DNA of 64,000 nt from Diplonema papillatum (lineage: Eukaryota; Euglenozoa; Diplonemea; Diplonemida; Diplonemidae). Below are positions 4,960 through 59,965 of the stretch, piece after piece. The stretch is from assembly GCA_030068145.1 (NCBI GenBank), contig JAPJBO010000968.1, positions 1 to 64,000 of the forward strand, given 5' to 3'. The position numbers and the translations under genes were made by a program. Position 1 is the first letter of the stretch. Every line of letters begins with the position of its first letter. Under the pieces are notes generated by a model. The model had not been told where the DNA came from and made no database searches. It saw nothing but the letters and a program-made list of their open reading frames with translations.

Positions 4960-5276
4960 TGGTGCTTCCCACTCAGGATCGGCTACCCGACTTGCCTGCA
5001 CCCCCAGGTTCAGCCGGTAATTTGATGAGCCGGCAGTCGGAAGGATCACCTGACTCCTTCTGCCCCTTTGGTAATTCGCCACCCTGCCCGCCCTTGCCGG
5101 ACTCCCAATGTCTGACACCGCATGGTCAGTTGTTTGAACAGCAGTTAACAGGTTCCCCGGTGCTGCGATGTCAACACTGCTCCGTCGAATGCACGAAGGA
5201 TGGCCAGACGTTCCAAGGTCTGAGGGGACTCCGCGCGCATGAGAGACGTTGCCACCTCGCGGGTGTGAGATTCTGA
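4960..5276 (+). pseudogene. Fragment encoding a C2HC zinc-finger peptide
   Basis: The open frame ends with RCQHCSVEC...GLRGLRAHERRC, a C-x2-C-x16-18-H-x3-4-C finger. The same finger type occurs twice in the ORF at 31482-31826. In both places related non-coding sequence follows a few hundred bases downstream (5617-5722 here, 31996 and 32605 there), so this is probably a remnant of the same element. The upstream part of the frame runs through a poly-C tract and the MITE and is not credible coding. Confidence 0.45.
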
Positions 5277-5616
5277 TCCGCGTCGTTTGAGCCTCATCGG
5301 ATTCTTGATTGCTGGCTGGTCTATATTTCACTCCGCACCCGTTTACCCTGACTAACGGGAAAAACTCGAAGTGTCTGTACGAGTGAACGCACACTAACAT
5401 GAGAGGATGAAGGCACGTATATGCCGCCTGGCCCTGTGCTAGGCGTAGTTTGAGGTTGTACTTATTTCCGAACAACCTACCACGAGCTTATCCACCCACA
5501 CCCCCATTTTTCCCCTTTCTTTTTATTTACTTTTTCCCGCCCGATGTCGCTGATGACTAACGGACCGTCGGACCCGTCCCAACGGGGGTGCTTATGGAAG
5601 CTGCAATGAAGGCTTA

Positions 5617-5722
5617 GACCGGTACGGGCTACATGGCAACCCCTGCTCAACATGTAGAACGTGGGGGGCCCTTGATCACATTCATTACGGGTGTGGTCGT
5701 GGTGTCGGTCGCAATAGTCGCT
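5617..5722 (+). repeat. Internal-deletion copy of element sequence from 32.0-32.7 kb
   Basis: The first part, ACCGGTACGGGCTACA to CTGCTCAAC, matches 31997-32031. The second, TGTAGAACGTGGGGGGCCC onward, matches 32612-32670. The ~575 bp that separate them at 32 kb are missing, with the junction at a TGCTCAAC sequence present at both ends of the missing piece. Confidence 0.75.
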
Positions 5723-7235
5723 TCGCTAGCCAAAGAGAGAGATAGAGAGAAAAAGAGCGCCAGAGAGAAAAGAAAAGATAACGTTATCTTCCGGAAAAGA
5801 AGGGTACGCGAACCCCCGAAAAAATAATTACCCCCAAAAAAAATATACAGAAAAAAAAAAAAAAATAAAAACACAACCGACGGTGACCCCCAAAACCTTT
5901 TTCAACCTTTCCAACACCCTTCAAGCTAAACCATTATACAACGACCCCCCCCCCCCTACCACACTTTTGTGACGCCACAAACTTCGTTTCCCGAGACGTT
6001 ACCATACGGCCCAACCCCCGAACACCAAGAGAGGTACAGTTTGGAAGGGACTGCATGTCAAAGCAGGAAAAGGCATATGGAAACGCTCAGAACCGATAAA
6101 GAACAAAAAAAGTCGTAACCCAACACAGGACGAGAAGGAAGGAGCAGCACCACCAGAACCGAGAAAGAACAAAAAAAGAAGAATACTACGCACCAAACCC
6201 ACCACCCTCCCCAACCCGGGCTTCCTTTTTACCCCTGCAAACCCGTGAATAGGTGCTACGGGAGTATCTGGCAACCGCTGCTTAACAGTGCTCACGTGGG
6301 CGGTGTCTTCGGACAGCACCTCGTGATGTTCGCATCACAAAACAAAGAAGACAGTGAAATGGTCGTTACCTGGTCGGGTTTCGCTCGCGACCGTTTCCTG
6401 AACAATCCTTCACTAAATCCGCGGTTAAATAACCTGGCCTCAGTGGTGCAAGCACCACGCGCTCTTCAAACCCAAGAAACATTTTCCCCCCTACCACAAC
6501 TAAGATTTTCCCCCCGGGTGTTGCTGCCGTGTTGTTGGCATGTGCAATTAATCACCCAAAGCGACACTTTTTAAAGGGGAGCTGACCTCCCCCCCTAATC
6601 ACCCCCCTCTCCCCATGACCCCATGACACAGATAGAGGAGTCCGGAGGAAACAAGTACTAGAGGAGAAAGAACTGAAGCAAATAGCGAGCTTTCGTGGCT
6701 TGTTCCTGTTAAGATTTGTATTCATCACCTTCATCAACGCGCCGTGCGCGCCGGGGGGGGAAAAAAAAAGACAACGAAGCAAAAACTTGCACTCCAAAAA
6801 TGAATTGCGGACTGGCGTTTCGGACTGACGTTCGTCGTCGGAAGCACAACAGAAGAGGAACCGTCAGGTGTCCTTCTTTCCGGTGATAAAAGATGCCCCC
6901 CCGCCCACCATCTCCCCCTCAAAAGCGAAATCCAAGACGAAGAACGAGGTGCGCACAAGACTGCGGTGGAAAGAAAGAATACAGCAGGCCAGTCCCTCAA
7001 GGCTTCTCTGAGCAAACTCGTTTGAGCACCTTCGGTGCTCTTGGGGGGTCTTTCGTGGCACAAGTAGTGCAGTCTAGGGGTCCAGCTTAGTTTGCCGTTC
7101 AACCGTTCTTGTTAGCAAGCGCACAAGTCCGAGGTTTGAGGGCAGCACGCGGCCAGTCCAACAATAAGCCCGAGGTAAGAAGTTCAGGGGAGAGAGCGGC
7201 ACCCTTATCCGCTATAGGTCTCACAGGCTAGAAGC
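5723..7235. other. Intergenic, no supported gene
   Basis: Low-complexity A-rich and C-rich runs (5840-5870, 5945-5960, 6575-6615). ORFs are short, overlap on both strands and lack recognisable domains. A stretch near 6930-7010 shares short blocks (GAAGAACGAGGTGCGC, CCCTCAAGG) with 24440-24510. Confidence 0.55.
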
Positions 7236-7239
7236 CTCT

Positions 7240-7870
7240 GGCCACACCCGAGCGCGCTGCATCAAGGTTCATTCAATTCCTGTGTCGGACTCCGATCCAA
7301 ATATTGGATCGTGCTGCATCAATTGCAGTCATTCCATGATCTAAGTCACCAAACCCAAACGCGTCGCATCACAGTGCATTCAATCAGAGGGTACTCTCTA
7401 CCTCTATTTCCATGTGATCCAGACACAGGCATTCCCGTTTTCTTATGCCTGTGCCTGGGTCATGTGACCGCAAGTAAACGCGAGCGAGATGTGCACCCCG
7501 TGCTTTCGACAGCGATCTTGGTTAGCTTACCCGAGCGCGCTGCATCAAAGTTCATTCAGTTCCTGTATCGGGCTCAGATCCAAATATTGGATCGTGCTGC
7601 ATCAATTACAGTAAATCCCTGATCTAAGTTAGCAAACCCAAACGCGTCGCATCAAAGTGCATTCAATCAGAGGGTACTCTCTCGTGTTCCAGGCACAGGC
7701 ATTCCCGTTTTCTGATGCCTGCGCTGTGCCTGGGTCATGTGGCGGCAAGAAAACGGGAGCAAGATCAGATCCAAATATTGTCTCGTGCTGCATCAATTAC
7801 AGTCAATCCATGGTCTAAGTTAGCAAACCCAAATGCGTCGCATCAAAGTGCATTCAATCAGAAGGGTGCG
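7240..7870. repeat. Tandem repeat, ~280-bp unit, about 2.3 copies
   Basis: Landmarks GAGCGCGCTGCATCAA, CCAAATATTG, CAAACCCAAACGCGTCGCAT and CACAGGCATTCCCGTTTTCT recur in order starting near 7248, 7530 and 7770 (the last copy truncated). No reading frame is conserved across copies. Confidence 0.8.
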
Positions 7871-8220
7871 GAAGGAGCGTGCAGCTCAGCGCCGGAGCCA
7901 CCATTATTCCTGCCGTTCCTTCCCGATCTTCCGCTACCCCCCAACACGCACCGCCTTCAGTCTTTTGCTGCTTCCCACCCATGCCGGTACTGGCACCCCG
8001 GGATGTCTTTGGGTGACAACCTCCAAATGCGCTTATCCAGGTGTCGAGCTTACCCGAGTACACACTCAAGTTCTGATGTACCTTCCACCACCCCGGGTTA
8101 GTGTCGCCTTTCCCGATGGATGCCTTTGTCGTATAGGATCGAAGATCATAGAAGATTGATACTATTCCGACGAGAACTAACACTTGTACAAAGGTTCTTA
8201 CCCCGTCGCTCCCGAGAAAA
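7871..8220. other. Intergenic, no supported gene
   Basis: Only overlapping short ORFs on both strands; no repeat or motif recognised. Confidence 0.5.
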
Positions 8221-9299: not shown

Positions 9300-9503
9300 T
9301 TTCATGTCGAAAAAGCCAAAACCCGAGCGGGAGTTCGGGCACTGTGCCTTCAGAGCAAAGACACATCGAAAAGGATCAATGTTTGCTGCTGTGAAGTGAT
9401 GTGTTGCGGAACCTTTCCAAAGGAGCGCCAGGTTTCCCATTTTGGAGTCGTAACACTCTCGAGTTCGACCCGTAGACTCTCCGGAAGGCTTTTTTATTAG
9501 GGT

Positions 9504-9544
9504 TTATTCCCTTATAGCCACCACGATTTTTTTTTATTCCCTTA
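9504..9544. repeat. Landing-pad motif TTATTCCCTTATAGCCAC, two copies
   Basis: One full copy lies at 9504-9522. A second begins at about 9535 and is interrupted after CCCTTA by the foldback element. The same motif recurs near 19654-19689 and 21450-21550. Confidence 0.75.
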
Positions 9545-9584
9545 GGGAGCACAGATTTTTTCCTGAGCGGGCCACCTGCCCACC
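9545..9584 (+). repeat. Left terminal inverted repeat of the foldback element
   Basis: Forty bases matching the reverse complement of 17541-17580 with one mismatch, preceded by TTA. Confidence 0.9.
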
Positions 9585-9689
9585 GACTTGGCAGAATGAA
9601 AAGGTGGGTCCCCAGACCCCCCCCCCACCTTGGTATGCGAAAAATATTTCTTGAGCAAAGCTGAGAAAATTTTCCCCCGCCCCAGCATT

Positions 9690-9768
9690 AATATGTGGTC
9701 GAGTTGACAGTGCGGCGTACCTCTACGGTGAGGGGCACAGGTTCGAATCCCGCCACGGTCCATTTTTT
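9690..9768 (+). ncRNA. tRNA-like sequence with pol III A and B boxes
   Basis: TGGTCGAGTTGACAG (9696-9710) resembles an A box of a class II tRNA. GGTTCGAATCC (9740-9750) is a perfect B box and a T6 run follows at 9763-9768. The acceptor arm does not pair, so it is not an intact tRNA. It is a tRNA pseudogene or tRNA-derived promoter. A degraded second copy (ACCTCTACCCCTGAGGGCAC) follows at 9771-9825. Confidence 0.45.
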
Positions 9769-9908
9769 CACCAGTGCAGCGGACCTCTACCCCTGAGGGC
9801 ACAGGTTCCAGGGTCATTTTTTTCACCAGATTTTCCCGCACCATTTTCGAGCACTTACATCGAAATTCTGAAGCCATCGGCGACCGTGGTCCGTGACCGG
9901 TCCGAAAA

Positions 9909-12518
9909 CGTCAGTTTGAGGGTTGTCCCACTTTTTGGGTCACTAAAACTGACGTTTGAGGGTTGTCCCACTCTTTTGGGTCACCAATACTGACGTTTGA
10001 GGGTTGTCCCACATTTTTCGATGACCAATACTGACGTTTGAGGGTTGTCCCACTTTTTTGGGTCACCAATACTGACGTTTGAGGGTTGTCCCACTTTTTT
10101 GGGTCACCAATACTGACGTTTGAGGGTTGTCCCACATTTTTCGATGACCAATACTGACGTTTGAGGGTTGTCCCACATTTTTGGATCACGAAAACTGACG
10201 TTTGAGGGTTGTCCCAAACTTTTGGATCACCAATACTGACGTTTGAGGGTTGTCCCACTTCTTTGGGGCTATAAAACTAACGTTTGAGGGTTGTCCCACT
10301 TTTTTGGGTCACCAATACTGACGTTTGAGGGTTGTCCCACTTTTTTGGATCACCAAAACTGACGTTTGAGGGTTGTCCCACTTTTTTGGATCACCAATAC
10401 TGACGTTTGAGGGTTGTCCCACTTTTTTGGATCACCAATACTGACGTTTGAGGGTTGTCCCACTTTTTTGGATCACCAATACTGACGTTTGAGGGTTGTC
10501 CCACTTTTTTCGATCACCAATACTGACGTTTGAGGGTTGTCCCACTTTTTTGGATCACCAATACTGACGTTTGAGGGTTGTCCCACTTTTTTGGATCACC
10601 AATACTGACGTTTGAGGGTTGTCCCACTTTTTTGGATCACCAATACTGACGTTTGAGGGTTGTCCCACTTTTTTGGATCACCAAAACTGACGTTTGAGGG
10701 TTGTCCCACTTTTTTGGATCACCAATACTGACGTTTGAGGGTTGTCCCACTTTTTTGGATCACCAATACTGACGTTTGAGGGTTGTCCCACTTTTTTGGG
10801 TCACCAATACTGACGTTTGAGGGTTGTCCCACATTTTTGGATCACCAATACTGACGTTTGAGGGTTGTCCCACTTTTTTGGATCACCAATACTGACGTTT
10901 GAGGGTTGTCCCACATTTTTGGATCACCAATACTGACGTTTGAGGGTTGTCCCACTTTTTTGGATCACCAATACTGACGTTTGAGGGTTGTCCCACTTTT
11001 TTGGATCACCAATACTGACGTTTGAGGGTTGTCCCACATTTTTGGATCACCAATACTGACGTTTGAGGGTTGTCCCACTTTTTTGGATCACGAAAACTGA
11101 CGTTTGAGGGTTGTCCCACTTTTTTGGATCACCAATACTGACGTTTGAGGGTTGTCCCACTTTTTTCGATCACCAATACTGACGTTTGAGGGTTGTCCCA
11201 CTTTTTTGGATCACCAATACTGACGTTTGAGGGTTGTCCCACTTTTTTCGATCACCAATACTGACGTTTGAGGGTTGTCCCACTTTTTTGGATCACCAAT
11301 ACTGACGTTTGAGGGTTGTCCCACTTTTTTGGATCACCAATACTGACGTTTGAGGGTTGTCCCACTTTTTTGGATCACCAATACTGACGTTTGAGGGTTG
11401 TCCCACTTTTTTGGATCACCAATACTGACGTTTGAGGGTTGTCCCACTTTTTTGGATCACCAATACTGACGTTTGAGGGTTGTCCCACTTTTTTGGATCA
11501 CCAATACTGACGTTTGAGGGTTGTCCCACTTTTTTGGATCACCAATACTGACGTTTGAGGGTTGTCCCACTTTTTTGGATCACCAATACTGACGTTTGAG
11601 GGTTGTCCCACTTTTTTGGGTCACCAATACTGACGTTTGAGGGTTGTCCCACTTTTTTGGATCACCAATACTGACGTTTGAGGGTTGTCCCACTTTTTTG
11701 GATCACCAATACTGACGTTTGAGGGTTGTCCCACTTTTTTGGATCACCAATACTGACGTTTGAGGGTTGTCCCACTTTTTTGGATCACCAATACTGACGT
11801 TTGAGGGTTGTCCCACTTTTTTGGATCACCAATACTGACGTTTGAGGGTTGTCCCACTTTTTTCGATCACCAATACTGACGTTTGAGGGTTGTCCCACTT
11901 TTTTGGATCACCAATACTGACGTTTGAGGGTTGTCCCACTTTTTTGGATCACCAATACTGACGTTTGAGGGTTGTCCCACTTTTTTGGATCACCAATACT
12001 GACGTTTGAGGGTTGTCCCACTTTTTTGGATCACCAATACTGACGTTTGAGGGTTGTCCCACTTTTTTGGATCACCAATACTGACGTTTGAGGGTTGTCC
12101 CACTTTTTTGGATCACCAATACTGACGTTTGAGGGTTGTCCCACTTTTTTGGATCACCAATACTGACGTTTGAGGGTTGTCCCACTTTTTTGGATCACCA
12201 ATACTGACGTTTGAGGGTTGTCCCACTTTTTTGGATCACCAATACTGACGTTTGAGGGTTGTCCCACTTTTTTGGATCACCAATACTGACGTTTGAGGGT
12301 TGTCCCACTTTTTTGGATCACCAATACTGACGTTTGAGGGTTGTCCCACTTTTTTGGATCACCAATACTGACGTTTGAGGGTTGTCCCACTTTTTTGGGT
12401 CACCAATACTGACGTTTGAGGGTTGTCCCACTTTTTTGGATCACCAATACTGACGTTTGAGGGTTGTCCCACTTTTTTGGGTCACCAATACTGACGTTTG
12501 AGGGTTGTCCCACATTTT
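9909..12518 (-). repeat. 41-bp satellite array, left arm (about 64 units)
   Basis: The unit contains TGACGTTTGAGGGTTGTCCC and TTTTTTGGATCACCAATAC. The inner two thirds are nearly uniform (GGATC variant). Variant units (GGGTC, CGATG, ATTTTT) cluster at the outer end and at the centre. Unit count is length divided by 41. Confidence 0.97.
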
Positions 12519-12519
12519 T

Positions 12520-15500
12520 CAGTATTGGTGATCCAAAAAAGTGGGACAACCCTCAAACGTCAGTTTTCGTGATCGAAAAAGTGGGACAACCCTCAAACGT
12601 CAGTATTGGTGACCCAAAAAAGTGGGACAACCCTCAAACGTCAGTATTGGTGACCCAAAAAAGTGGGACAACCCTCAAACGTCAGTATTGGTCATCGAAA
12701 AAAGTGGGACAACCCTCAAACGTCAGTATTGGTGATCCAAAAAAGTGGGACAACCCTCAAACGTCAGTATTGGTGACCCAAAAAAGTGGGACAACCCTCA
12801 AACGTCAGTATTGGTGATCCAAAAAAGTGGGACAACCCTCAAACGTCAGTATTGGTCATCGAAAAAAGTGGGACAACCCTCAAACGTCAGTATTGGTGAC
12901 CCAAAAAAGTGGGACAACCCTCAAACGTCAGTATTGGTGATCGAAAAAAGTGGGACAACCCTCAAACGTCAGTATTGGTGATCCAAAAAGTGGGACAACC
13001 CTCAAACGTCAGTATTGGTCATCGAAAAAGTGGGACAACCCTCAAACGTCAGTATTGGTGATCCAAAAAAGTGGGACAACCCTCAAACGTCAGTATTGGT
13101 CATCGAAAAAAGTGGGACAACCCTCAAACGTCAGTATTGGTGATCCAAAAAAGTGGGACAACCCTCAAACGTCAGTATTGGTGATCGAAAAAAGTGGGAC
13201 AACCCTCAAACGTCAGTATTGGTGACCCAAAAAAGTGGGACAACCCTCAAACGTCAGTATTGGTGATCGAAAAAAGTGGGACAACCCTCAAACGTCAGTA
13301 TTGGTGATCCAAAAAAGTGGGACAACCCTCAAACGTCAGTATTGGTCATCGAAAAAAGTGGGACAACCCTCAAACGTCAGTATTGGTGACCCAAAAAAGT
13401 GGGACAACCCTCAAACGTCAGTTTTCGTGATCGAAAAAAGTGGGACAACCCTCAAACGTCAGTATTGGTGATCCAAAAATGTGGGACAACCCTCAAACGT
13501 CAGTATTGGTCATCGAAAAAAGTGGGACAACCCTCAAACGTCAGTATTGGTGATCCAAAAAAGTGGGACAACCCTCAAACGTCAGTATTGGTCATCGAAA
13601 AAAGTGGGACAACCCTCAAACGTCAGTATTGGTGATCCAAAAATGTGGGACAACCCTCAAACGTCAGTATTGGTCATCCAAAAAAGTGGGACAACCCTCA
13701 AACGTCAGTATTGGTGATCCAAAAATGTGGGACAACCCTCAAACGTCAGTATTGGTGATCCAAAAAAGTGGGACAACCCTCAAACGTCAGTATTGGTCAT
13801 CCAAAAAAGTGGGACAACCCTCAAACGTCAGTATTGGTGATCCAAAAAAGTGGGACAACCCTCAAACGTCAGTATTGGTGATCCAAAAAAGTGGGACAAC
13901 CCTCAAACGTCAGTATTGGTGATCCAAAAATGTGGGACAACCCTCAAACGTCAGTATTGGTGACCCAAAAAAGTGGGACAACCCTCAAACGTCAGTATTG
14001 GTGATCCAAAAAAGTGGGACAACCCTCAAACGTCAGTATTGGTGATCCAAAAAAGTGGGACAACCCTCAAACGTCAGTATTGGTGATCCAAAAAAGTGGG
14101 ACAACCCTCAAACGTCAGTATTGGTCATCGAAAAAAGTGGGACAACCCTCAAACGTCAGTATTGGTGATCCAAAAAAGTGGGACAACCCTCAAACGTCAG
14201 TATTGGTCATCGAAAAAAGTGGGACAACCCTCAAACGTCAGTATTGGTCATCCAAAAAGTGGGACAACCCTCAAACGTCAGTATTGGTGATCCAAAAAAG
14301 TGGGACAACCCTCAAACGTCAGTATTGGTCAGCGAAAAAAGTGGGACAACCTTCAAACGTGAGTATTGGTCATCGAAAAAAGTGGGACAACCCTCAAACG
14401 TCAGTATTGGTCATCGAAAAAAGTGGGACAACCCTCAAACGTCAGTATTGGTGATCCAAAAATGTGGGACAACCCTCAAACGTCAGTATTGGTCATCGAA
14501 AAAAGTGGGACAACCCTCAAACGTCAGTATTGGTGATCCAAAAATGTGGGACAACCCTCAAACGTCAGTATTGGTCATCGAAAAAAGTGGGACAACCCTC
14601 AAACGTCAGTATTGGTGATCGAAAAAAGTGGGACAACCCTCAAACGTCAGTATTGGTGATCCAAAAAAGTGGGACAACCCTCAAACGTCAGTATTGGTCA
14701 TCCAAAAAAGTGGGACAACCCTCAAACGTCAGTATTGGTGATCCAAAAATGTGGGACAACCCTCAAACGTCAGTATTGGTGACCCAAAAAAGTGGGACAA
14801 CCCTCAAACGTCAGTATTGGTGATCCAAAAAAGTGGGACAACCCTCAAACGTCAGTATTGGTGATCCAAAAAAGTGGGACAACCCTCAAACGTCAGTATT
14901 GGTGATCCAAAAAAGTGGGACAACCCTCAAACGTCAGTATTGGTGATCCAAAAAAGTGGGACAACCCTCAAACGTCAGTATTGGTCATCCAAAAAAGTGG
15001 GACAACCCTCAAACGTCAGTATTGGTGATCCAAAAAAGTGGGACAACCCTCAAACGTCAGTATTGGTGATCCAAAAAAGTGGGACAACCCTCAAACGTCA
15101 GTATTGGTGATCCAAAAAAGTGGGACAACCCTCAAACGTCAGTATTGGTGATCCAAAAATGTGGGACAACCCTCAAACGTCAGTATTGGTGACCCAAAAA
15201 AGTGGGACAACCCTCAAACGTCAGTATTGGTGATCCAAAAAAGTGGGACAACCCTCAAACGTCAGTATTGGTGATCCAAAAAAGTGGGACAACCCTCAAA
15301 CGTCAGTATTGGTGATCCAAAAAAGTGGGACAACCCTCAAACGTCAGTATTGGTGATCGAAAAAAGTGGGACAACCCTCAAACGTCAGTATTGGTCATCC
15401 AAAAAAGTGGGACAACCCTCAAACGTCAGTATTGGTGACCCAAAAAAGTGGGACAACCCTCAAACGTCAGTATTGGTGACCCAAAAAAGTGGGACAACCC

Positions 15501-17262
15501 TCAAACGTCAGTATTGGTGATCCAAAAAAGTGGGACAACCCTCAAACGTCAGTATTGGTGATCCAAAAAAGTGGGACAACCCTCAAACGTCAGTATTGGT
15601 GATCCAAAAAAGTGGGACAACCCTCAAACGTCAGTATTGGTGATCCAAAAAAGTGGGACAACCCTCAAACGTCAGTATTGGTGATCCAAAAAAGTGGGAC
15701 AACCCTCAAACGTCAGTATTGGTGACCCAAAAAAGTGGGACAACCCTCAAACGTCAGTATTGGTGATCCAAAAAAGTGGGACAACCCTCAAACGTCAGTA
15801 TTGGTGATCCAAAAAAGTGGGACAACCCTCAAACGTCAGTATTGGTGATCCAAAAAAGTGGGACAACCCTCAAACGTCAGTATTGGTGACCCAAAAAAGT
15901 GGGACAACCCTCAAACGTCAGTATTGGTCATCCAAAAAAGTGGGACAACCCTCAAACGTCAGTATTGGTGATCCAAAAAAGTGGGACAACCCTCAAACGT
16001 CAGTATTGGTGATCCAAAAAAGTGGGACAACCCTCAAACGTGAGTATTGGTCATCGAAAAAAGTGGGACAACCCTCAAACGTCAGTATTGGTGATCCAAA
16101 AAAGTGGGACAACCCTCAAACGTCAGTATTGGTCAGCCAAAAAAGTGGGACAACCTTCAAACGTGAGTATTGGTCATCGAAAAAAGTGGGACAACCCTCA
16201 AACGTCAGTATTGGTGATCCAAAAAAGTGGGACAACCCTCAAACGTCAGTATTGGTCATCGAAAAAAGTGGGACAACCCTCAAACGTGAGTATTGGTCAT
16301 CGAAAAAAGTGGGACAACCCTCAAACGTCAGTATTGGTCATCGAAAAAAGTGGGACAACCCTCAAACGTCAGTATTGGTGATCCAAAAAAGTGGGACAAC
16401 CCTCAAACGTCAGTATTGGTCATCGAAAAAAGTGGGACAACCCTCAAACGTCAGTATTGGTGATCCAAAAAAGTGGGACAACCCTCAAACGTCAGTATTG
16501 GTGATCCAAAAAAGTGGGACAACCCTCAAACGTCAGTATTGGTCATCGAAAAAAGTGGGACAACCCTCAAACGTCAGTATTGGTGACCCAAAAAAGTGGG
16601 ACAACCCTCAAACGTCAGTATTGGTCATCGAAAAAAGTGGGACAACCCTCAAACGTCAGTATTGGTGACCCAAAAAAGTGGGACAACCCTCAAACGTCAG
16701 TATTGGTGATCCAAAAAAGTGGGACAACCCTCAAACGTCAGTATTGGTCATCGAAAAAAGTGGGACAACCCTCAAACGTCAGTATTGGTGATCCAAAAAA
16801 GTGGGACAACCCTCAAACGTGAGTATTGGTCATCGAAAAAAGTGGGACAACCCTGAAACGTCAGTAATGGTGACCAAAAAAGTGGGACAACCCTCAAACG
16901 TCAGTATTGGTCATCGAAAATAGTGGGACAACCCTGAAACGTCAGTAATGGTGACCAAAAAAAGTGGGACAACCCTCAAACGTCAGTATTGGTGATCCAA
17001 AAATGTGGGACAACCCTCAAACGTGAGTATTGGTCATCGAAAATAGTGGGACAACCCTGAAACGTCAGTATTGGTGACCAAAAAAGTGGGACAACCCTCA
17101 AACGTCAGTATTGGTCATCGAAAAAAGTGGGACAACCCTCAAACGTCAGTATTGGTGATCCAAAAATGTGGGACAACCCTCAAACGTGAGTATTGGTCAT
17201 CGAAAATAGTGGGACAACCCTCAAACGTCAGTATTGGTGACCCAAAAATGTGGGACAACCCC
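12520..17262 (+). repeat. 41-bp satellite array, right arm (about 115 units)
   Basis: The same unit in the opposite orientation. Variants GATCC, GACCC, CATCG, CATCC and GATCG are mixed throughout, and the outer end also has CTGAAACG and GTGAGT variants. Since 41 is not a multiple of 3, each frame reads through three units in turn, giving a 41-residue periodic peptide. ORFs of up to 283 codons occur where CATCG replaces the TGA-containing GTGATC variant. They look like by-products, not genes. Confidence 0.97.
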
Positions 17263-17370
17263 AGTTTTTGTTGTCTGAAAAGTGGTCTAGCTGTAGATTT
17301 CTAAGTGAGAACACCAACAGGATTGTTGAAATGGGGTTGAAAAGTTTATTAGAAAACCCGTACCGTTTGG

Positions 17371-17395
17371 GCGGGGGGCGTAGCCCCCCGCACCC
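17371..17395. other. Short GC hairpin
   Basis: GCGGGGGGCGTAGCCCCCCGC folds into a short perfect stem inside the right part of the foldback element. Confidence 0.6.
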
Positions 17396-17540
17396 CCCTG
17401 TTTTTCATGTTTTTTGGCGGGATATCTGAAAAGTTTCTGAAAAAGTCGCGGAGAACACCAATCCGGAGTGATTCCAGAATTCTGGAAAACCGGACCCTCC
17501 TGGGGGCAAAAGGTGGGTCCCCCACCCCCCCCCTATAAAT

Positions 17541-17580
17541 GGTGGGCTGGTGGCCCGCTCAGGAAAAAATCTGTGCTCCC
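17541..17580 (-). repeat. Right terminal inverted repeat of the foldback element
   Basis: Pairs with 9545-9584. It is followed by TTA, which is also the left flank of the next element. Confidence 0.9.
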
Positions 17581-17583
17581 TTA

Positions 17584-19235
17584 GGGTAGGCGGTTTTTTT
17601 TTTTTGGCCCATGTCCGTCGGCCCACAGAAATTTACGCGCGCGCGCGCAAAAAAAAAACTTTTCAGAAAAAAAAAACTTTTGCCACAAGACTTTCTGCTA
17701 CTGGATGTCACACCATATGTGCCGGCTATACTACTGGCCAGTCCGCTGTTGGCACTTTTGTGCCCGTTGTTGGTAGAATTTCTGGACGATGAGCTCAAAG
17801 GTGAGTGTGAAGATGAACTTGATGTGTCCGAGGGGTTGCGGTGGCAGTCTAGAGTTCAACAGTCCTGAACGCCGCGCGGGGTGCGTTTCGACAAAACCTT
17901 CCATAGTCGGAGGCTGCAGATGATAGACGATGCCACAGGAGAAAAAACACTCGGGTTTGAACTCGAGATCGCGGTTCGCTGGGTACGCTGCGAACAATAA
18001 AGCAGTGACCCAGAGGACTGTCGATTGCGCGGGTGTCCGTCAATCTCTTATCTCTCTTCTGACATGCCCCATTGCGATGTCACGGTACCGTGCGAGAGCC
18101 TACTGACGGCTGGTCGGTGGCATTTCCATCGGCGAGAATAAGCGCCAGCTACCCGCAGATAGTATGGTGAACTTCAACTTCTGCTTTCCTCCACCTTGTG
18201 CAAGGATGGTTGCTCTCGCGGCTTCTGCGGCGGTCTGCTGTTGAAACCCCCAAAGGCGGACGTCGACACCGTCACTTCGGGTGTAGTGGCTTTGTCAATA
18301 TTACCCGAGTACACAAAGATGCCCTGCTTGGTGTAAACGGAGTTTGTCGGTACTCTGCCGACCCTCCTGTCAGCAAGCTTTAGCCAGTGGCCACCTTCTG
18401 ATGCGTAGCAAACGGCGCCGGACTCACAAGATGTACCTCACCCACATCGAAAGAGACCATTGATGTCTCGACATCCGCACGGAGGGCAGGTGCTTCTAGC
18501 ACACGGCAATTGGTTAGACGCCGTGTGCAACGAAGGCAGTTATGCTCAGGGATGTGCGGTCTAGACTGTCAGGCGACGAGTGCCGTTTTCTTCGCAAATA
18601 TACCGCGGCACAAGGCATTGCCGCCGGTCAAGTGCACTAAGTCGCAAGCACCGTGAACGCATCGCTTGCCCCGCGTCCTTTTCATGCCTCCTCAGTCGAG
18701 TCTCAGATACTAGTAGCTGCTTGAGGCGTCGGAAGGCATAGACGCGTGCACTGCCCCGGACTGGTTCTGTGTGATAATCGCACCACAGTGGCAAAACCTC
18801 CCGACATGCCTTGCCGGTAAAACCGCGCACACTTTCGAGGCTGAGGCTGTGCTTGTATCCCGCGTGCTTCGACTGCGTCCAGCAGGAGCTACGCAAATCT
18901 TGCTGTTTAGATTGACACCAACGTCAAAGTAGCACGATATTGCTTGCCCAGCGCACCAACCCAGCACCGGGCATAGTCAGCTTCAAAGTCAATACACACT
19001 GAGGTAAACAAAGTCTACGCGATTTGCATCGCCGTGAAGTATCGGTGTGATGAACAGGTTTTCGACTTTTCGCGAGCCGGACACGCTCGTGACTACGCCT
19101 GCAGTCGCTCTCACGACCGGTTCCAATGCACAGATCCCAAAAGTTTTTTTTTTTGGCAAAAGTTTTTTTTTTCCGGGGGTTCCCAAAAATTTACGCGCGC
19201 GCGGACATGGGCCAAAAAAAAAAAACCGCCTACCC
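17584..19235. mobile_element. 1.65-kb TIR element abutting the foldback element
   Basis: A perfect 34-bp TIR (GGGTAGGCGG, T12, GGCCCATGTCCG) lies at 17584-17617 and 19202-19235, with TTA on both sides (17581-17583 and 19236-19238). The left TTA is shared with the foldback element. A further inverted segment (A10 CTTTT tracts) lies inside each end, and between outer and inner parts a segment ending in AAATTTACGCGCGCGCG has the same orientation at both ends. The interior (17690-19130) has only short ORFs without recognisable domains. TTA plus GGG ends suggest a PIF/Harbinger-type non-autonomous element. Confidence 0.8.
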
Positions 19236-19255
19236 TTATAGCCAGGGATTTTCCC

Positions 19256-19338
19256 CTTTAGTGAAAAAAAAAAAAAAAATTCACTAAAAAAAAAAATTCC
19301 CAAAATGGGCTTGGTGAAAAAACTTTTTTCACTAAAGG
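19256..19338. mobile_element. Tiny inverted-repeat element
   Basis: CCTTTAGTGAAAAA at the left and TTTTTTCACTAAAGG at the right bracket about 50 bp of A-rich sequence that contains another TTCACTAAA. It may be a small MITE or a degraded end of a larger one. Confidence 0.5.
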
Positions 19339-19684
19339 GATTTTGCGTTGCTGGGTGTAGGTGGTAAGGGCGCGGGTTGTGGTGGACAGTGTGGGTGGGC
19401 GTGGGTGGTGGGCGCTGGTGGTGGAGTGGGTGCGTGTTGTGTGTGGTCGGGGCGTGGGTTGTGGGTGAAGGGCCAGAGGGACCCCCGCTTATGGGGCTAC
19501 GAGGTCAACGACGCGTACCACACACAGACAGACACAGGCACGTGTCGACTGGCACCCACACCACACCACACCGGCAGAAAAACTTTTCTGCCGGAGTGAA
19601 ATTTTTTTTCACCACGAGTTTGGCCCGAAGCTGGTGAGTGGAAAAACCCCTGCTTATAGCCACGAAAAAAGAATTTTATTCCCT
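19339..19684. other. G/T-rich spacer with landing-pad motif
   Basis: A GGGTGTGG-like biased tract at 19350-19460, then CACACA-rich sequence, then TTATAGCCACG and TTATTCCCTTATAG at 19654-19689. No gene is supported. Confidence 0.5.
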
Positions 19685-19689
19685 TATAG

Positions 19690-21449
19690 TGGTGTTACCC
19701 ACAATGCTGAATATAGAAGTTTGATAGAAGTTGTATGGAGTAGGGGGTGTCACTTTTTATTGTTATAATGATGGTGCACAACGCTGACGTTTTCTTGAGC
19801 CGAACTCCCGTTTTCTGCGCGCAAGCCCAACTGCGGTTGTGGTTCGCGCTGCACGCGGCCCTCTGGACCCATTTCGGGCGAGGTATAGACACTGGCCTTG
19901 CCAACACCTCCAGTACTTTCTGACCACCTGTGATGTTCATCTTGGCAAGGGGCCAATGTGCAAGCGACCTTGCGTTTCTTGTGCTGATGCACTGGATGGC
20001 TCGCCTCGGCCTTTCCCTGCCACCAGCTCACAAGGGTGTTGTCCTGGCGGCTGGCTGAGCAGCTGGCTGGGCGACTGGCTGGGCGACTGGCTGGGCGACT
20101 GGCTGGGCGACTGGCTGGGCGACTGGCTGGGCGACTGGCTGGGCGACTGGCTCCGTTTTGCATCACAGCCGCGCCAAACCGACGGGCCACCGGCGTTGCT
20201 GACGTGGTCACCGTATTTCAAAACAGCCGCGGCAATCCCGCCATGCACTGCTCGTAAGTGCCCAGTGCTATCTGGGAGAGGACTGGTGCGGTTTCTGCTG
20301 CCATCTTTCCTTGTTTCAGCATAACTTTGTTCACGATCATCGTGAACGTACATGACATTGTTATGTGCAGATTTGTTCCTTCCCTGGTTCATCCATTTAA
20401 CCCCTTAACTCCAGGCTCTCAACTTTTCCCTGGTTATTTGGTCGAAATCCAAGCTTAAAAGTTCGGTCCCCTCCTTAGCGGTCTCGAGGCCCTTCGAGGG
20501 TGCATTTGAAGCTTGTGTGATATTTTTGCAACTGAGCTCTTCGCATTTGAGAGTTTACCGTCTGGTATACACACGACAGGATGTCTGTTGAGCGTCGAGC
20601 CTGTCCTGAGCTTCTGGATTGGTCAGGGCCTTTTGCCCACCCCCGGCCACCCGACCAGCATTTTAGCTAAAGGTGGCCAAATACAACCGCTAGCTCGGTA
20701 AGTCTTTTGAGGGTTGTTCTAAAATAACTCTGGGGGGTGCATAGACAGGAGCGTTCACAACAAGCATCCAATTCGGACAGCTTGAAGACGCTGTCCAAGT
20801 AGTCGTTTTGGAACCTTGCCGTCGTAGTTGTTGCTGCAGTCGTAGTCGTGTGCACTTCCTCCGCGTGGCACCACACTCCTGGAGGCACTTCAAACAGATG
20901 AATCCTCTTGTACCAGTCTCTTCTTCACTTCGGGCTGAGGAAACGAAGCAACCTTTCTCCAGGTTTTCGCACTGCAGATTTTGCAGCATCCCTGTTCTTC
21001 AGTACCTGCCATCCCAGTTCTGAAGTGCGCTCATAGGGGATGGCAATATGCCTGGTGAAGTGAAGTGCAAAAGGAGGGGCCATGGGGGACAACCTTTTTG
21101 GGTCGTATTCTGACGATTTCGTGACCGATCTTTCCATTCCGTGTCTTCTCGGGAGCAACATGCACATATCACACGTACCACACGCGCTCCCGGTATGATC
21201 TAAATATAATTATATCGGGTTGAACGCGTCCAAGGGGGGTCATCTTTTTTTTCTAAACCCTCGGGAACAGAGAGACCGGGGACACCTGCGCGCATAGCAT
21301 CAAAAATTGGTCGATTTAGTGAAACCTTTGGTGACTGTGTGCGCTGCCATAGGGTGGTCATTTTTGACATATCAAAATAAAAAGTGACACACCCCCCCTG
21401 AATATAGAAGTTTGATAGAAGTTGTGTAGGCTCCTAGTGGGTAACACCA
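19690..21449. mobile_element. 1.76-kb TIR element with 5-bp target duplication
   Basis: TGGTGTTACCCA (19690-19701) is repeated inverted at 21438-21449, and TATAG occurs directly outside both ends (19685-19689 and 21450-21454). A second inverted block (GGGGGTGTCACTTTTTATT, 19743-19761 versus 21377-21397) lies further in. Between these blocks a 28-bp core is in direct orientation (19707-19734 and 21398-21425). The interior has a 12-bp minisatellite and short ORFs only; no transposase was recognised. Confidence 0.82.
20063..20152. repeat. 12-bp minisatellite, about 7.5 copies
   Basis: Tandem CTGGCTGGGCGA units inside the 19690-21449 element. They translate as Gly-Asp-Trp-Leu or Ser-Gln-Ser-Pro repeats depending on frame and strand, with no other sign of coding. 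Confidence 0.92.
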
Positions 21450-21560
21450 TATAGCCACGGCAATGTTTTTTATTCCCTTACAGCCACCACATGTTTTTTA
21501 ATATTCTCTTGTAGCCACGAAAAAAGAATTTTATTCCCTTATAGCCACGGATTGTCATTA
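21450..21560. repeat. Cluster of landing-pad motifs
   Basis: TATAGCCACGG (21450), TTATTCCCTTACAGCCACC (about 21469), ATTCTCTTGTAGCCACG (about 21503) and TTATTCCCTTATAGCCACGG (about 21531) form a short irregular tandem of one ~30-bp motif, the same one interrupted by the neighbouring TIR elements. Confidence 0.75.
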
Positions 21561-32835: not shown

Positions 32836-33140
32836 AGCTAAGAAACATTTACACGGTTCGTATTAAACCCGCATACGGTAGCTCTCCCCCCCCTCCGTCC
32901 TTGAGTGGTTAACCATGGTTCAGTGCGCAAATGGTGTCAGCCGAATCTCTGGGTCCGGCTCTATCCGCACTGGTGGACAAACTTACGTTCTCATACAATT
33001 CTGCAGTTTTAAGGCAAGTGCCCGAAGTGGTTCGTTCCCATCTGCATCTCGAACCCGTCCTTCGTGCGCGTCAGTAGGCAGTTCATGAACGACAACATAG
33101 ACACAAATATAGCTCAAAAGCATCAAAATAGCAACCGTTT

Positions 33141-33160
33141 TCACATTTCTTCTTCTTTAG
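33141..33160 (+). promoter_or_regulatory. Putative 3' splice site ahead of the SDR start
   Basis: TTTTCACATTTCTTCTTCTTTAG ends with AG at 33159-33160, and the truncated copy at 29200-29222 keeps it. From AG to the ATG the frame is open and in phase in both copies (33 and 39 nt). It could be the acceptor of a 5' exon or of spliced-leader trans-splicing; the donor is not identified. Confidence 0.4.
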
Positions 33161-33193
33161 AATAGCCCCCGGGAAAGACAAAAAGAACAAAAG

Positions 33194-34114
33194 ATGCCTG
33201 TCGTGTACGAGCTGTTGGACCTGACGAACAAGGTCTACGTGGTCACCGGAGCCAACGCGGGGCTGGGGCTGGAGAGTTCCACGGTGTTCGCGAGGCAAGG
33301 CGCGCACGTTGTGATGGCTTGCCGGAACATGGAGAAGGCGGGGGCGGCGTTGAAGATCGTGCAGGCGGCGGCGAAGGACGCCGGGAAGGGAAGCGCCGAG
33401 ATCATGCACCTCGACCTGTCCTCGCTCGACAGCGTGGCCGCGTTCGCGAAGGAGCTTGCGGCGAAGCATAAAGTCGTGCACTGCTTGCTGAACAACGCGG
33501 GGGTGATGAACTGCCCACTGACGCGCACGAAGGACGGGTTCGAGATGCAGATGGGAACGAACCACTTCGGGCACTTCGCGTTGACCATGCGGCTGCTGCC
33601 GCTGCTCAAGAGGGCGGAGCAGGCCCGGATCGTCAACGTCAGCAGCATTGCCGCGATGTCCCCGGTAGGCATCCACTGGAGCGACATCAACTGCGAACGC
33701 TCGGGCTACAACGGCTGGCTGCGGTACTGCGCCAGCAAGCTCGCGAACCTGATCTTCAGCCACGAGCTGCAGCGCAAGCTGAAAGAGACTGGCGTCGACA
33801 ACATCACGGTGCTGATGGCCCACCCCGGGATGACCAGCACGGAGCTCGAGCGGCACACGTCGTGGATGCCGTACGTCTCGTGGATGATCCTTTCGCCCGT
33901 TTCGAAGGGCGCGAAGTCGCAGATATACGCCGCTGCCGGCGCGAAAGTGGCGCCCCTCGAATACTACGGCCCTTCCATGTACACATCGGGCGAGCCTTCG
34001 CTCACGAACCCGGGGTCTGCCGCCAAATCGGAGGCCAACGGCGAGAAGCTCTGGAAAATCAGCGAAGAGCTCACGAAGGAAACCTTCCCGTCGTTGAAGG
34101 ATTCTGCGCTCTGA
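33194..34114 (+). CDS. Short-chain dehydrogenase/reductase, retinol-dehydrogenase-like
   Basis: 306 residues with a complete classical/RDH-type SDR signature. TGANAGLG (residues 18-25) binds the NAD(P) dinucleotide, DLSSL (about 74-78) follows the adenine pocket, NNAG is at 100-103, TNHFGHF at 122-128, the catalytic Ser is in VNVSS (150-151), and the catalytic Tyr178 and Lys182 are in YCASK. Length and motifs match soluble members near RDH11-14 and WWOX, which act on retinoid, steroid or lipid carbonyls; the substrate here cannot be told. There is no signal peptide, but a hydrophobic patch (WMPYVSWMIL) near residue 225 may associate with membranes. It is apparently intronless. A 5' fragment of the gene lies about 3.9 kb upstream. 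Confidence 0.93.
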   Translation: MPVVYELLDLTNKVYVVTGANAGLGLESSTVFARQGAHVVMACRNMEKAGAALKIVQAAAKDAGKGSAEIMHLDLSSLDSVAAFAKELAAKHKVVHCLLNNAGVMNCPLTRTKDGFEMQMGTNHFGHFALTMRLLPLLKRAEQARIVNVSSIAAMSPVGIHWSDINCERSGYNGWLRYCASKLANLIFSHELQRKLKETGVDNITVLMAHPGMTSTELERHTSWMPYVSWMILSPVSKGAKSQIYAAAGAKVAPLEYYGPSMYTSGEPSLTNPGSAAKSEANGEKLWKISEELTKETFPSLKDSAL

Positions 34115-56773: not shown

Positions 56774-59700
56774 ATGAAGGAGCAGCCGGCGAGTCTGTAC
56801 ACGGCGCCGGATGCGGTGTTGCCCGACCAGCGGGGCTTCGCCGTCGAAACGCTGAAGTCGCGGCTGCAGAAGAAGTGGACAGACGGGTTCAGCCGGCCGT
56901 GGGACAACTGGGTCCTCGTCTTCAGCCTGGTCAGCGCCGTCGTATACGTGGTCGAGACTTACTCCGAGGACACCACCACGCCGCTTTGGTCACAGGTCGT
57001 CGAGTTCACGGTGGCGTCGTTCTTCATTTGCGATTACGCGATCCGGTTTTACTTGGCAGAGAACCGATGCAAGTTCTGCATGCGGCCGTCGTCGGTGCTC
57101 GATATGCTTTGCATCCTGCCCGTCCTGTTCATCTTCACGATGGAGCGCGAGGATGATGCGCAGCAGTTCATCTTCTTCCTGCAGTTCCTTCGGGTCGTAC
57201 GCCTCGTCCGGATCCTGAGGGGTTACCGGGCCGTGACCGTGAGCAAGAGGGGGGACCCGGACAACCTGAAGCGGCAGCTGAACATCTTGATCTACACCCT
57301 GCTGACGCTGATTTTCATCACAGCGGCGCTGCTGCACCTCGTGGAGAAGTACGCGCGGGTGTCGTGGTGGGACGACGCGGGCGGGGTGAACGAGTTGGGG
57401 AGCTTCCACGATGCTGTGTACTTCGTGGTGATAACCTTGACGACGGTCGGATACGGTGACATCACGCCGAAGACGGCGATCGGGCGGGGGCTGGTGATGG
57501 TGTTCGTGACGGCGTCGGTGGTCATCATCCCCCGGGAGAGCGGGAAGCTGTCGGAGCTCATGGCGCTGACGTCACCGTATGCGGGGGCCTTCACCAACGA
57601 GGAGAAGCAGGCGCACATCCTCGTCGGCGGCCACGTCGAGTTTTTGAACCTGCGGTCGTTTTTGATGGAGTTCTTCCACTCGGCCCACGGGCATCACCAA
57701 ATGCAGGTCCTCGTCATGTCGCCGTCACCCCCTTCAAAAACGGTTAAGCTGCTCTTCGGACAGAACGGGCTATTCGGAGATCGCGTGCAGTTCTTCGAAG
57801 GATCGGCGCTCGACGAGGCCGACTTGACGAGGATGCGGTACCGCAGTGCGTCGGCCTGCTTCTTCCTCGCGGACAAACTCAGCAACGACCCCCACCTCGC
57901 GGACTGCGAGACGATCATGCGCGTGCTGTCGGCGAAGAACTGCTCCGCCCACGTCCCCGTGTTCGCGCAGCTGCTGCTTTCGGAGTCCAAGGAGCAGGTA
58001 GTAACCGCCGGGGCCGACTACGTGGTGTGCCTCCGGGAGCTGAAGATGCACATCCTCGCGACGAGCTCTCTCGTGCATGGGTTTTCGACGCTCTTCTGCA
58101 ACCTTTTCCGCAACGAGGACTACATCTTCGACAAGCCGGGCCACTGGCTTTCCGAGTACTGCCACGGGATCAGCTACGAAGTGTACACCCTCACCCGGTT
58201 CCCCTCGTGCATGGTCGGGAAGAAGTTCAGCGTCGTGGCGTGCTTCATTTACCAGAAGTGGGGCAGCCTGCTCTTCGGGGTCCAGGCCACCGCACCAGGC
58301 GGTGGCCGGCAGCCGATGCTCAACCCCATCTCCACCGTCGGAGCGTCGTACTACATACAACAGTCGGACAGCGGGTTCATCTTCGCGGTCGACAGCTCGA
58401 TCACCGAAGAGATCGAGCGATTCGACGGAGAAGTCGCCTTTTTGGACGCGAACACCTCCCCTCCGCAATCGCGGGGCCCGAGCCTGCGGAACATGTCGAA
58501 GGTATCGAAGGACTCGTCCGTCCTAGACCGGCGGTCCTTTTCCAAGCCGCTGGGGTCACCTACGGACTCCTCGAGGGCGAGGGCCAGGGATTCACGGGCG
58601 GAGCCCCCGCAGCTGACCTTCGAAGAGGAGGTGGGCACTCCTAACCGGACGGTCGGCTTCTCGGATTTGATGCCGGCCGACAGCCCGCCCCCGCGCTTCG
58701 GGTTCGCTGACTCGGAGATACCGACGTTCATGAGCGAGGGGTCGCTGGTGAGTCACCGACAGAACCCGCTGCGGTTTTCGTCGCGGCACACTGCGAAGGG
58801 GTGCGTGGTCGTGGCGGATTCTCCGGCGGAGAAGGACATCCTCGACGCTTCCGGGACGCTGTCGTCGGGGACAGCGAAGCACCACCGGTCCATCATCAAG
58901 AACCCCCCGCCGCTGATCCCGGCGATGAAGCGGCCGAAGCACAAGGTGATGGCCAGCTGCGGCGAGCTGCCGCCGCTCATCCCGCTCGGCGGCGTCGAGG
59001 ACTGCGAGGACCGCCTGCGGCACGAGAAGATCATCGACCACGTCCCCGCCGACATCGGCGGGCACATCGTCGCCGTCACGCACGACATGTCGTCGCTGCT
59101 GCACTTCGTCGCCCTCTTCCGGGTCGACGTATCTCGCTCCGCGCGGACGTTCCCCATCGTCTGCGTGGTGCCCAGAGTACCCGAACCCGACCTGCTTCGG
59201 ACCTGCCTGCGGTACCCTGAAGTCTTCTTCATCATTGGCAGCGGCAAGGAGAAGAGCGACTTCGTCAAGTGCGGCTGCGTGCGCGCGCGGACGTGCGTGA
59301 TCCTGTTTTCCGGTACCATCGGGAAAACGAATCTGCAGTACCCTTCCGAGTACGACGGGTCCGGGGAGGAGATGATGGCGGATTTCGACGCGATTAGCAC
59401 CCTCGCGTGCGTGAGGGCCGTGTGCCAGACCCCGTGCCAGGCGGAGCCGCAGCGCCCGTTCACGATCGTCGAGCTGGTGCACAAGCAGAACGCCCGGTTC
59501 CTCCACCCGAAGCACTCGGACGAGAACGGGAAGATCACCGAGTCGAACGACTACATCGTGCCGTCGTACGCGGGGGGCAACGTGTACTCGGACGCGGTCA
59601 TGGACTCGCTCTTGTGCCAGGTCTTTTACAACCACGACCTGCTGCTCATCCTGCGGCTGTTCCTCAACCCGGGCCCGCTGGGGGACGGCGCCGCGGAGGA

Positions 59701-59965
59701 GTTCTTCTCGTCGAAGGTGTTCTCTCTGTCGACGCCGCCCGAGCTTGCCGGGTCGACCTTCGGCGAGCTGCTCATCCGCCTCCTCATCAACGAGTCGGTC
59801 CTTCCCATCGGGCTCTTCCGGGCCCCGGCGGCGGCCGCCCCGCCGCCTCTGGCATCTTGCATCCCGTACGTCTTCCTTTGCCCCAGCGAGGACACCATAG
59901 TGCACGCGCACGACGTCCTGTTCGTTCTTGCGGAGCGTGACCCGCAACTTCATGCAAAAGGGTGA
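56774..59965 (+). CDS. Slo/BK-type potassium channel with two RCK domains
   Basis: 1063 residues. S1 (about 46-62), S2 (74-95), S3 (107-122), an arginine-rich S4 (RVVRLVRILRGYR, 140-152), S5 (169-191), a pore loop with the K+ selectivity filter TVGYGD (224-229) and S6 (236-252). RCK1 begins at HILVGGHVEFLNLRSFL (281) and RCK2 near GGHIVAVTHDMSSLL (762). PSYAGGNVYSDAVMDSLL (about 929) matches the conserved stretch late in RCK2 of Slo channels. A Ser/Pro-rich linker (about 560-700) joins the RCK domains. It should form a tetrameric plasma- or endomembrane K+ channel gated by voltage and/or intracellular ligands; I see no clear acidic calcium bowl, and no extra S0 helix. Apparently intronless. 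A 5' fragment lies upstream and the 3' end is amplified downstream. Confidence 0.94.
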   Translation: MKEQPASLYTAPDAVLPDQRGFAVETLKSRLQKKWTDGFSRPWDNWVLVFSLVSAVVYVVETYSEDTTTPLWSQVVEFTVASFFICDYAIRFYLAENRCKFCMRPSSVLDMLCILPVLFIFTMEREDDAQQFIFFLQFLRVVRLVRILRGYRAVTVSKRGDPDNLKRQLNILIYTLLTLIFITAALLHLVEKYARVSWWDDAGGVNELGSFHDAVYFVVITLTTVGYGDITPKTAIGRGLVMVFVTASVVIIPRESGKLSELMALTSPYAGAFTNEEKQAHILVGGHVEFLNLRSFLMEFFHSAHGHHQMQVLVMSPSPPSKTVKLLFGQNGLFGDRVQFFEGSALDEADLTRMRYRSASACFFLADKLSNDPHLADCETIMRVLSAKNCSAHVPVFAQLLLSESKEQVVTAGADYVVCLRELKMHILATSSLVHGFSTLFCNLFRNEDYIFDKPGHWLSEYCHGISYEVYTLTRFPSCMVGKKFSVVACFIYQKWGSLLFGVQATAPGGGRQPMLNPISTVGASYYIQQSDSGFIFAVDSSITEEIERFDGEVAFLDANTSPPQSRGPSLRNMSKVSKDSSVLDRRSFSKPLGSPTDSSRARARDSRAEPPQLTFEEEVGTPNRTVGFSDLMPADSPPPRFGFADSEIPTFMSEGSLVSHRQNPLRFSSRHTAKGCVVVADSPAEKDILDASGTLSSGTAKHHRSIIKNPPPLIPAMKRPKHKVMASCGELPPLIPLGGVEDCEDRLRHEKIIDHVPADIGGHIVAVTHDMSSLLHFVALFRVDVSRSARTFPIVCVVPRVPEPDLLRTCLRYPEVFFIIGSGKEKSDFVKCGCVRARTCVILFSGTIGKTNLQYPSEYDGSGEEMMADFDAISTLACVRAVCQTPCQAEPQRPFTIVELVHKQNARFLHPKHSDENGKITESNDYIVPSYAGGNVYSDAVMDSLLCQVFYNHDLLLILRLFLNPGPLGDGAAEEFFSSKVFSLSTPPELAGSTFGELLIRLLINESVLPIGLFRAPAAAAPPPLASCIPYVFLCPSEDTIVHAHDVLFVLAERDPQLHAKG

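Follow-up and report, generated by a model that had tools for sequence, protein, structure and literature searches.

The 64,000-nucleotide stretch analysed here, referred to as the window, comprises positions 1 to 64,000 of Diplonema papillatum contig JAPJBO010000968.1 (C968), one of 2,910 contigs in a 271-Mb genome. Three nearly contiguous elements with terminal inverted repeats (TIRs), termed E1, E2, and E3, lie within it, and inside the inverted ends of each is a core sequence that points in the same direction at the left end and at the right. These direct cores had been reported in a preliminary description of this DNA, and the sequence observation is confirmed: the cores are correctly placed within inverted ends and go beyond chance. 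E1, E2, and E3 are multi-copy TIR families. The reading favoured here, whose chances are about evenly balanced, is that they are TIR families with asymmetric subterminal recognition sites that were fixed once per family. The features of the three elements, in window coordinates, are the following.

9545..17580: E1, a foldback-type TIR element of 8,036 bp, with TTA at 9542-9544 and 17581-17583
9545..9584, + strand: E1 left TIR (GGGAGCACAGATTTTTTCC...), 40 bp, with 1 mismatch to the right TIR
9599..9613, + strand: E1 left core AAAAGGTGGGTCCCC, located by exact search
9914..12519, + strand: E1 left-arm array of 41-bp units, about 64 copies
12519..17261, - strand: E1 inverted-arm array of the same 41-bp unit as the left arm, about 116 copies
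17508..17522, + strand: E1 right core AAAAGGTGGGTCCCC, oriented as the E1 left core
17541..17580, - strand: E1 right TIR, inverted relative to the left TIR
17584..19235: E2, a TIR element of 1,652 bp, with TTA at 17581-17583 and 19236-19238
17584..17617, + strand: E2 left TIR (GGGTAGGCGG, T-run, GGCCCATGTCCG), 34 bp
17629..17645, + strand: E2 left core AAATTTACGCGCGCGCG, located by exact search
17649..17681, + strand: E2 left inner motif, two copies of A10-CTTTT, with offsets of 66 and 84 relative to the end
19139..19172, - strand: E2 right inner motif, two copies of A10-CTTTT, with offsets of 64 and 82
19187..19203, + strand: E2 right core AAATTTACGCGCGCGCG, oriented as the E2 left core and overlapping the TIR by 2 bp
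19202..19235, - strand: E2 right TIR, 34 bp
19690..21449: E3, a TIR element of 1,760 bp, with the 5-bp TATAG at 19685-19689 and 21450-21454
19690..19702, + strand: E3 left TIR TGGTGTTACCCAC, 13 bp
19707..19734, + strand: E3 left core, 28 bp, with 266 exact genomic copies
19747..19760, + strand: E3 left inner motif GTGTCACTTTTTAT, at offset 58
21377..21390, - strand: E3 right inner motif GTGTCACTTTTTAT, at offset 60
21398..21425, + strand: E3 right core, 28 bp, identical to the left core and in the same orientation
21437..21449, - strand: E3 right TIR, 13 bp

E2 starts right after a single TTA that it has in common with E1, and therefore one of the two elements was probably inserted into the target duplication of the other. 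E3 follows approximately 450 bp beyond E2. The foldback element, which the preliminary description began at 9585, in fact starts at 9545. Its two arrays run in opposite orientation, are unequal in length, and join at 12519; E1 is the only one of the three with the long inverted arms of tandem repeats that characterize foldbacks. As described previously, each of the elements is bounded by inverted outer repeats (9545-9584/17541-17580 in E1, 17584-17617/19202-19235 in E2, and 19690-19702/21437-21449 in E3), and inner inverted repeats are present in E2 (20 bp) and E3 (15 bp).

Each of the three elements lies within or next to copies of a repeat that contains TTATTCCCTTATAGCCAC (9500-9545, 17578-17590, 19233-19250, 19650-19690, and 21450-21550), and the window has 3 occurrences of TTATAGCCAC compared to an expected 0.04.

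The cores are unique to the element ends. Exact searches of both strands of the window find AAAAGGTGGGTCCCC only at 9599 and 17508, AAATTTACGCGCGCGCG only at 17629 and 19187, and the 28-bp core of E3 only at 19707 and 21398, always on the + strand. The 15-bp E1 match extends into a C-run, giving 27 bp at 93%. The E2 core is built of AAATTT and (CG)n, and a 10-base stretch is common to the core and its own reverse complement; because both of its components are self-complementary, the direction of this core consists only in the order of its halves. The E3 core has an internal 11-bp period, with 9 of 17 positions matching at lag 11, which is suggestive of two tandem half-sites.

Within the 80 bp inside the TIRs, the longest direct match is 15 bp in E1, 15 bp in E2 (with the 2-bp TIR overlap trimmed), and 28 bp in E3. 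By comparison, when the left and right ends of 12 window pairs were mismatched in 132 combinations, the direct matches were at most 9 bp long, and among 15,402 random 80 x 80 bp window pairs, a length of 15 bp was reached in about 0.1%, with genuine repeats of the window counted in. Chance or low-complexity matching, which the preliminary description had named as a possible undoing of its own observation, is thus extremely improbable as an explanation of the cores. In its favour are the simple composition of the E2 core described above and the C-run into which the E1 match extends. However, the E3 core consists of 28 complex bases, the cross-pair controls do not exceed 9 bp, and both ends have the core in the copies that were read.

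It can further be seen from the rest of the genome that the three elements have the general properties of transposon families, namely TIRs and a target duplication of constant length at many loci. E2 is represented by 40 scored copies (of 679 candidates) that are 98–100% identical, and E1 by 40 scored genomic places for its left end and 40 for its right end. For E3, the exact cores divide into 148 + 118, the exact left TIR with the next four bases occurs 158 times genome-wide (79 + 79), and the inner-left pattern gives 88 + 72 matches with at most one mismatch. The target duplication is 3 bp long in all 11 E1 copies read (TTA, TAA, AAA, TTT, or GTA) and in all 10 E2 copies that were parsed (TTA, TAA, or TGA; 11 were tried, and L063, which was unparsed, was left out). 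In E3 it is 5 bp long in 22 of 23 parsed rows, the exception being L005. These come from 27 rows tried, among which L033, L038, L039, and L042 were unparsed and three repeat loci already counted. Since E1 and E2 duplicate 3 bp and E3 duplicates 5 bp, the target duplications are of at least two different lengths.

The orientation of the cores looks fixed within each family. Both cores are direct in 11 of 11 E1 copies, one of which (L049) lacks 1 base of its left core, and in all 10 parsed E2 copies. Twenty regions were fetched for E3, and all 18 complete elements in them have inverted TIRs and direct cores; in the two remaining regions, the entire right end including the TIR is turned round (L038), or the region is a tandem array (L042). 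These regions inform orientation and not conservation, because they were mostly picked for having both cores exact. Among the first 100 of the 266 E3 cores there are 22 neighbouring pairs 0.5–8 kb apart, and 21 of the 22 are on the same strand, L038 again being the exception. In addition, the list of exact E3 left TIRs up to contig C527 has 64 entries, 39 of which lead into an exact core with the same orientation. Eight of the other 25 were read; in seven of these a mutated core occupies the usual position and points the usual way, and the eighth is truncated. The preliminary description had wondered whether other copies might carry an inverted core and whether cores might flip through the flanking short repeats. 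No copy with an inverted core was met among those examined, and present-day flipping is not borne out, with no core found flipped relative to its TIR in a genome-wide search, at up to 3 mismatches, that was confined to E3 left ends.

Some E3 copies have undergone changes of their own. L042 (C446:116000-118200) consists of 228-bp units in tandem derived from the E3 right end, and is a transposon end turned satellite. The opposite E3 end has given rise to another array, at C852:83938-84893, where at least thirteen inner-left matches are spaced at 77 bp, and C1181 and C1260 have 4 and 5 scattered inner-left matches among the matches listed. L038, with its inverted right end, and L007 are copies with near-identical left flanks, and L007 has short deletions between TIR and core at both ends. 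A 12-bp minisatellite, GGCGACTGGCTG, lies inside E3; it has approximately 9 copies at 20046-20152 in the window and extends over more than 3 kb in the copy L037 (C201), where each strand has open frames.

Two of the elements, E3 and more weakly E2, have at one end a reversed core inside a near-equal frame whose limits are the outer motif and the inner motif. The window copy of E3 has its outer motif from base 2 at both ends and its inner motif, GTGTCACTTTTTAT, at 58 on the left and 60 on the right. Across rows, the inner motif starts at 57–60 bp on the left and 58–61 bp on the right, and the two values differ by 0–3 bp in 21 of 21 rows. The core, by comparison, starts after 17 bp on the left in all 21 rows and after 24 bp on the right where it is exact. 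The frame reads 4 bp, core, 12 bp at the left end and 11 bp, core, 7 bp at the right end, and an in-place flip of the left end would give 12 bp, core, 4 bp. In the window copies, the left and right frames measure 44 and 46 bp in E3 and 31 and 29 bp in E2. The distance from the inner edge of the TIR to the first inner motif of E2 is constant at the left end and 2 bp shorter at the right end in 10 of 10 copies, a constancy that says little because the copies are young. E1 has no inner motif comparable to those of E2 and E3, its best 14-mer matching at 11 of 14 positions.

Such frames would also fit a neutral founder accident, in which the core at one end of an originally longer perfect TIR was flipped in place by template switching or hairpin repair and the functionless product was then amplified. 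This is an unlikely explanation. It agrees with the near-equal frames, with the position of the E3 core close to that of an in-place flip, and with the single state per family in the copies read. However, the flanks beyond the core are without clear direct homology, it would take a coincidence for each of three neighbouring families to have had an accident of this kind, and the E1 core is without substitutions in 11 copies.

The favoured reading, of asymmetric recognition sites fixed once per family, starts from what the copies directly show: multi-copy families, exact target duplications, a single core orientation in all complete copies that were read, and a near-equal outer-to-inner distance in E3. 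E1, E2, and E3 would then be ordinary TIR families of the cut-and-paste type that are most likely non-autonomous and depend on other transposases acting in trans. Each end would be a composite recognition region, made of the outer TIR and the core and, in E2 and E3, an inverted inner motif as well. The core would be a putative subterminal site, and its having the same direction at both ends would make the left end different from the right. By analogy with the Hermes transposon discussed below, a transposase or accessory protein most likely binds the core and may use this asymmetry to tell the two ends apart. The layout is likely to have arisen once in each family and to have spread with a single founder, and its origin could plausibly lie in an in-place inversion, at one end, of the stretch that separates the outer from the inner motif. 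In the 11 E1 copies, which were picked by homology of their ends, there are no substitutions in the TIR, spacer, or core at either end, and at the left end 1 of 1,096 cells is substituted in the first 100 bp compared to 61 of 2,861 further in.

Several results speak against this reading. At the right end of E1 there is no such gradient of conservation (5 of 1,099 cells in the first 100 bp compared to 12 of 2,448 further in), the E2 copies are too similar to reveal constraint, and the conservation seen in E3 is inflated by the choice of copies, mostly made for exact cores. The outer-to-inner distance of E2 varies (70 versus 63 bp in L061, 63 versus 70 bp in L062), and it is not kept in all copies because the T-run of the TIR slips. 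Moreover, when the flanks of the two cores are aligned in direct orientation, the score of the upstream flanks is reached by 2,000 of 2,000 shuffles in E3, 1,143 in E2, and 1,894 in E1, and that of the downstream flanks by 77 of 2,000 in E3 and 41 of 2,000 in E1. These alignments are too unconvincing to demonstrate an inversion that extends past the core. Finally, PF13359 (DDE_Tnp_4) had no match in a six-frame genome search that ignored introns and was the only genome-wide search for a transposase family, and a Pfam comparison at E 0.1 gave no family for one reading frame of E2 and one of the E3 family. The 5-bp GTAGG found after both E3 cores was considered as flank homology and set aside as weak, given the 77 of 2,000 shuffles.

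A further candidate is nested insertion or filler capture, in which the core is a long duplication created when an inner element or filler DNA entered the middle of a short outer TIR element. An outer TIR, the core, and an inner repeat would then be followed by the interior and by the same parts in reverse order, and the observed order fits this. There is some precedent for this in the coral CMITE-IN, where an inner TIR element, apparently mobile itself, lies between 23-bp direct repeats (excerpt of PMC2872659). As far as that excerpt describes it, CMITE-IN differs from the present elements in being without outer TIRs, in using TTAA targets, and in having arisen by insertion between pre-existing direct repeats. 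One E3 element, L071 (C697), is also in line with nesting: it is a 69-bp form with a single core between its TIRs and a perfect 5-bp duplication, ACAAA. The same form may just as well have arisen by deletion from one 28-bp core to the other, however, and the joined-flank E3 pattern gave only this 1 single-core form compared to 158 exact left TIRs, which argues against recent nesting. The joined-flank matches of E1 and E2 were judged from the matches listed; the only E2 match (3 mismatches) resembles a right-end variant, and all 63 E1 matches resemble normal left ends. In addition, the inner repeats do not adjoin the core on both sides, the distance from core to GTGTCAC in E3 being 12 and 7 bp, and a duplication of 15–28 bp is longer than is known for eukaryotic TIR elements. 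Taken together, this explanation appears distinctly unlikely.

The preliminary description had gone on to suggest a shared rule, such as a directional binding or nicking site. In its general form, this would be a directional binding, nicking, or resolution site used across unrelated families of this genome, and it would accommodate the three neighbouring families, their two lengths of target duplication, and core matches that are each beyond the chance controls. The proposal is not supported, and it must be regarded as very improbable. The cores have no common sequence or motif by eye, the target duplications are 3 bp in two families and 5 bp in the third, and the E2 core is partly low-complexity. 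Each family may be one founding event, and the three-element pattern probably rests on three founder events. The rule is further weakened by nine other inverted-repeat pairs, hand-picked from an inverted-repeat scan of the window, in which the direct matches within 80 bp inside the repeat are 0 to 10 bp long; at a range of 300 bp, one pair has a self-complementary 12-mer and another an 11-mer. As a control on the frequency of the layout these pairs are weak, because several are without a target duplication and may not be transposons.

A survey of six random 10-kb stretches, which is a small sample, likewise brought no further clear TIR family with a core. The first stretch (L065) has one 16-bp self-complementary pair, which matches directly over 20 bp as well, L066 has a repeat array with matches in both directions, and L067 has a foldback array with inverted matches only. 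A short local duplication in L068 has direct matches of 17 and 14 bp and an inverted match of 18 bp, and is without a target duplication, and L069 and L070 contain nothing above the thresholds. The L067 array, at approximately 5100-8120, is a second foldback array alongside that of E1, with a unit of about 31 bp (AAGTTGTCTTATATGTCCGACATAGTTTCA).

Among known transposon systems, hAT elements, including Hermes, duplicate 8 bp of target; the binding sites of the P element are inverted between its ends; CACTA elements have many subterminal repeats per end; and PIF/Harbinger elements duplicate a 3-bp TWA target. According to the excerpted text of PMC10368747, Hermes has short TIRs and asymmetric ends with five oriented subterminal repeats (STRs) in the first 55 bp of each. 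STR2-STR7 of its left end are antisense, STR1-STR5 of its right end are sense, and symmetrised left/left ends are inactive (same excerpt). E1, E2, and E3 are like Hermes, so described, in having the same subterminal sequence at both ends in a non-mirror arrangement, but unlike it they have one core of 15–28 bp per end instead of many 4-bp sites, and duplications of 3 or 5 bp. The Drosophila P element, in the excerpt of PMC7776569, has outer TIRs, an internal binding site that is 9 bp from the TIR at one end and 21 bp from it at the other, inner subterminal inverted repeats, and a target duplication of 8 bp. This unequal spacing resembles that of the E3 spacers (4 and 11 bp). Membership in hAT or P was considered and does not fit, since the duplications are 3 bp in E1 and E2 and 5 bp in E3 rather than 8 bp.

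CACTA (En/Spm) elements, as excerpted from PMC8195511, carry subterminal repeats of 10–20 bp that are bound by TnpA, and related members may keep their subterminal regions around unrelated interiors. The likeness is that these repeats occur in direct as well as inverted orientation; the TIRs here, however, start with GGGAGC, GGGTAG, and TGGTGT, and not with the CACTA expected from the same source. With Galileo-type foldbacks (excerpts of PMC3573991 and PMC4168063), E1 shares long, internally repetitive inverted arms, but differs from them in its 3-bp duplications and in having its arrays inside short unique ends. E1 and E2 resemble the miniature inverted-repeat transposable elements of the PIF/Harbinger group in that they start with GGG and mostly duplicate TTA or TAA, the target being TWA in 7 of 11 E1 copies and 9 of 10 E2 copies. 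They differ in that some of their targets are GTA, AAA, TTT, or TGA and in that PF13359 is without a genome match, and E3 does not fit this group, as it duplicates 5 bp and not a 3-bp TWA. E1, E2, and E3 are thus placed in none of these groups, because their duplications do not fit hAT or P, their TIR starts do not fit CACTA, and the genome search for PF13359 gave no match.

The preliminary description knew of no element class with such a layout. This was too strong, in that oriented asymmetric subterminal sites have been published for Hermes and related layouts for CACTA and the coral CMITE-IN. Among the papers listed by searches of open PMC text, none showed exactly this layout. The layout looks more similar to known asymmetric transposon ends than to the product of a new shared rule.

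The near-equal frame of E3 around a reversed core, and more weakly that of E2, is the part most worth carrying forward. If the core is a directional mark, such compact ends would suit the study of how transposases pair left with right ends, a question that has been raised for Hermes and P. A stronger form of this idea, that a core with obligate direction, set in a near-constant frame with inverted outer and inner sites on its two sides, marks left/right identity in at least two unrelated families, with 3-bp and 5-bp duplications, is quite improbable; if true, the logic of the mark would resemble that of the 12/23 spacing rule. If the layout is only a founder accident, the families would still suggest that a reversed core at one end is compatible with amplification.

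Two further features of the window lie outside the elements. At 33016-33576 there is an inverted repeat with 71-bp arms, one of them in the frame of a short-chain dehydrogenase (33194-34114) and the other just upstream of that frame. At 56774-59965 and 59872-61785 there is a BK-type potassium channel, read as one long frame, with a 3′ end that enters a 160-bp unit repeated approximately 12 times.

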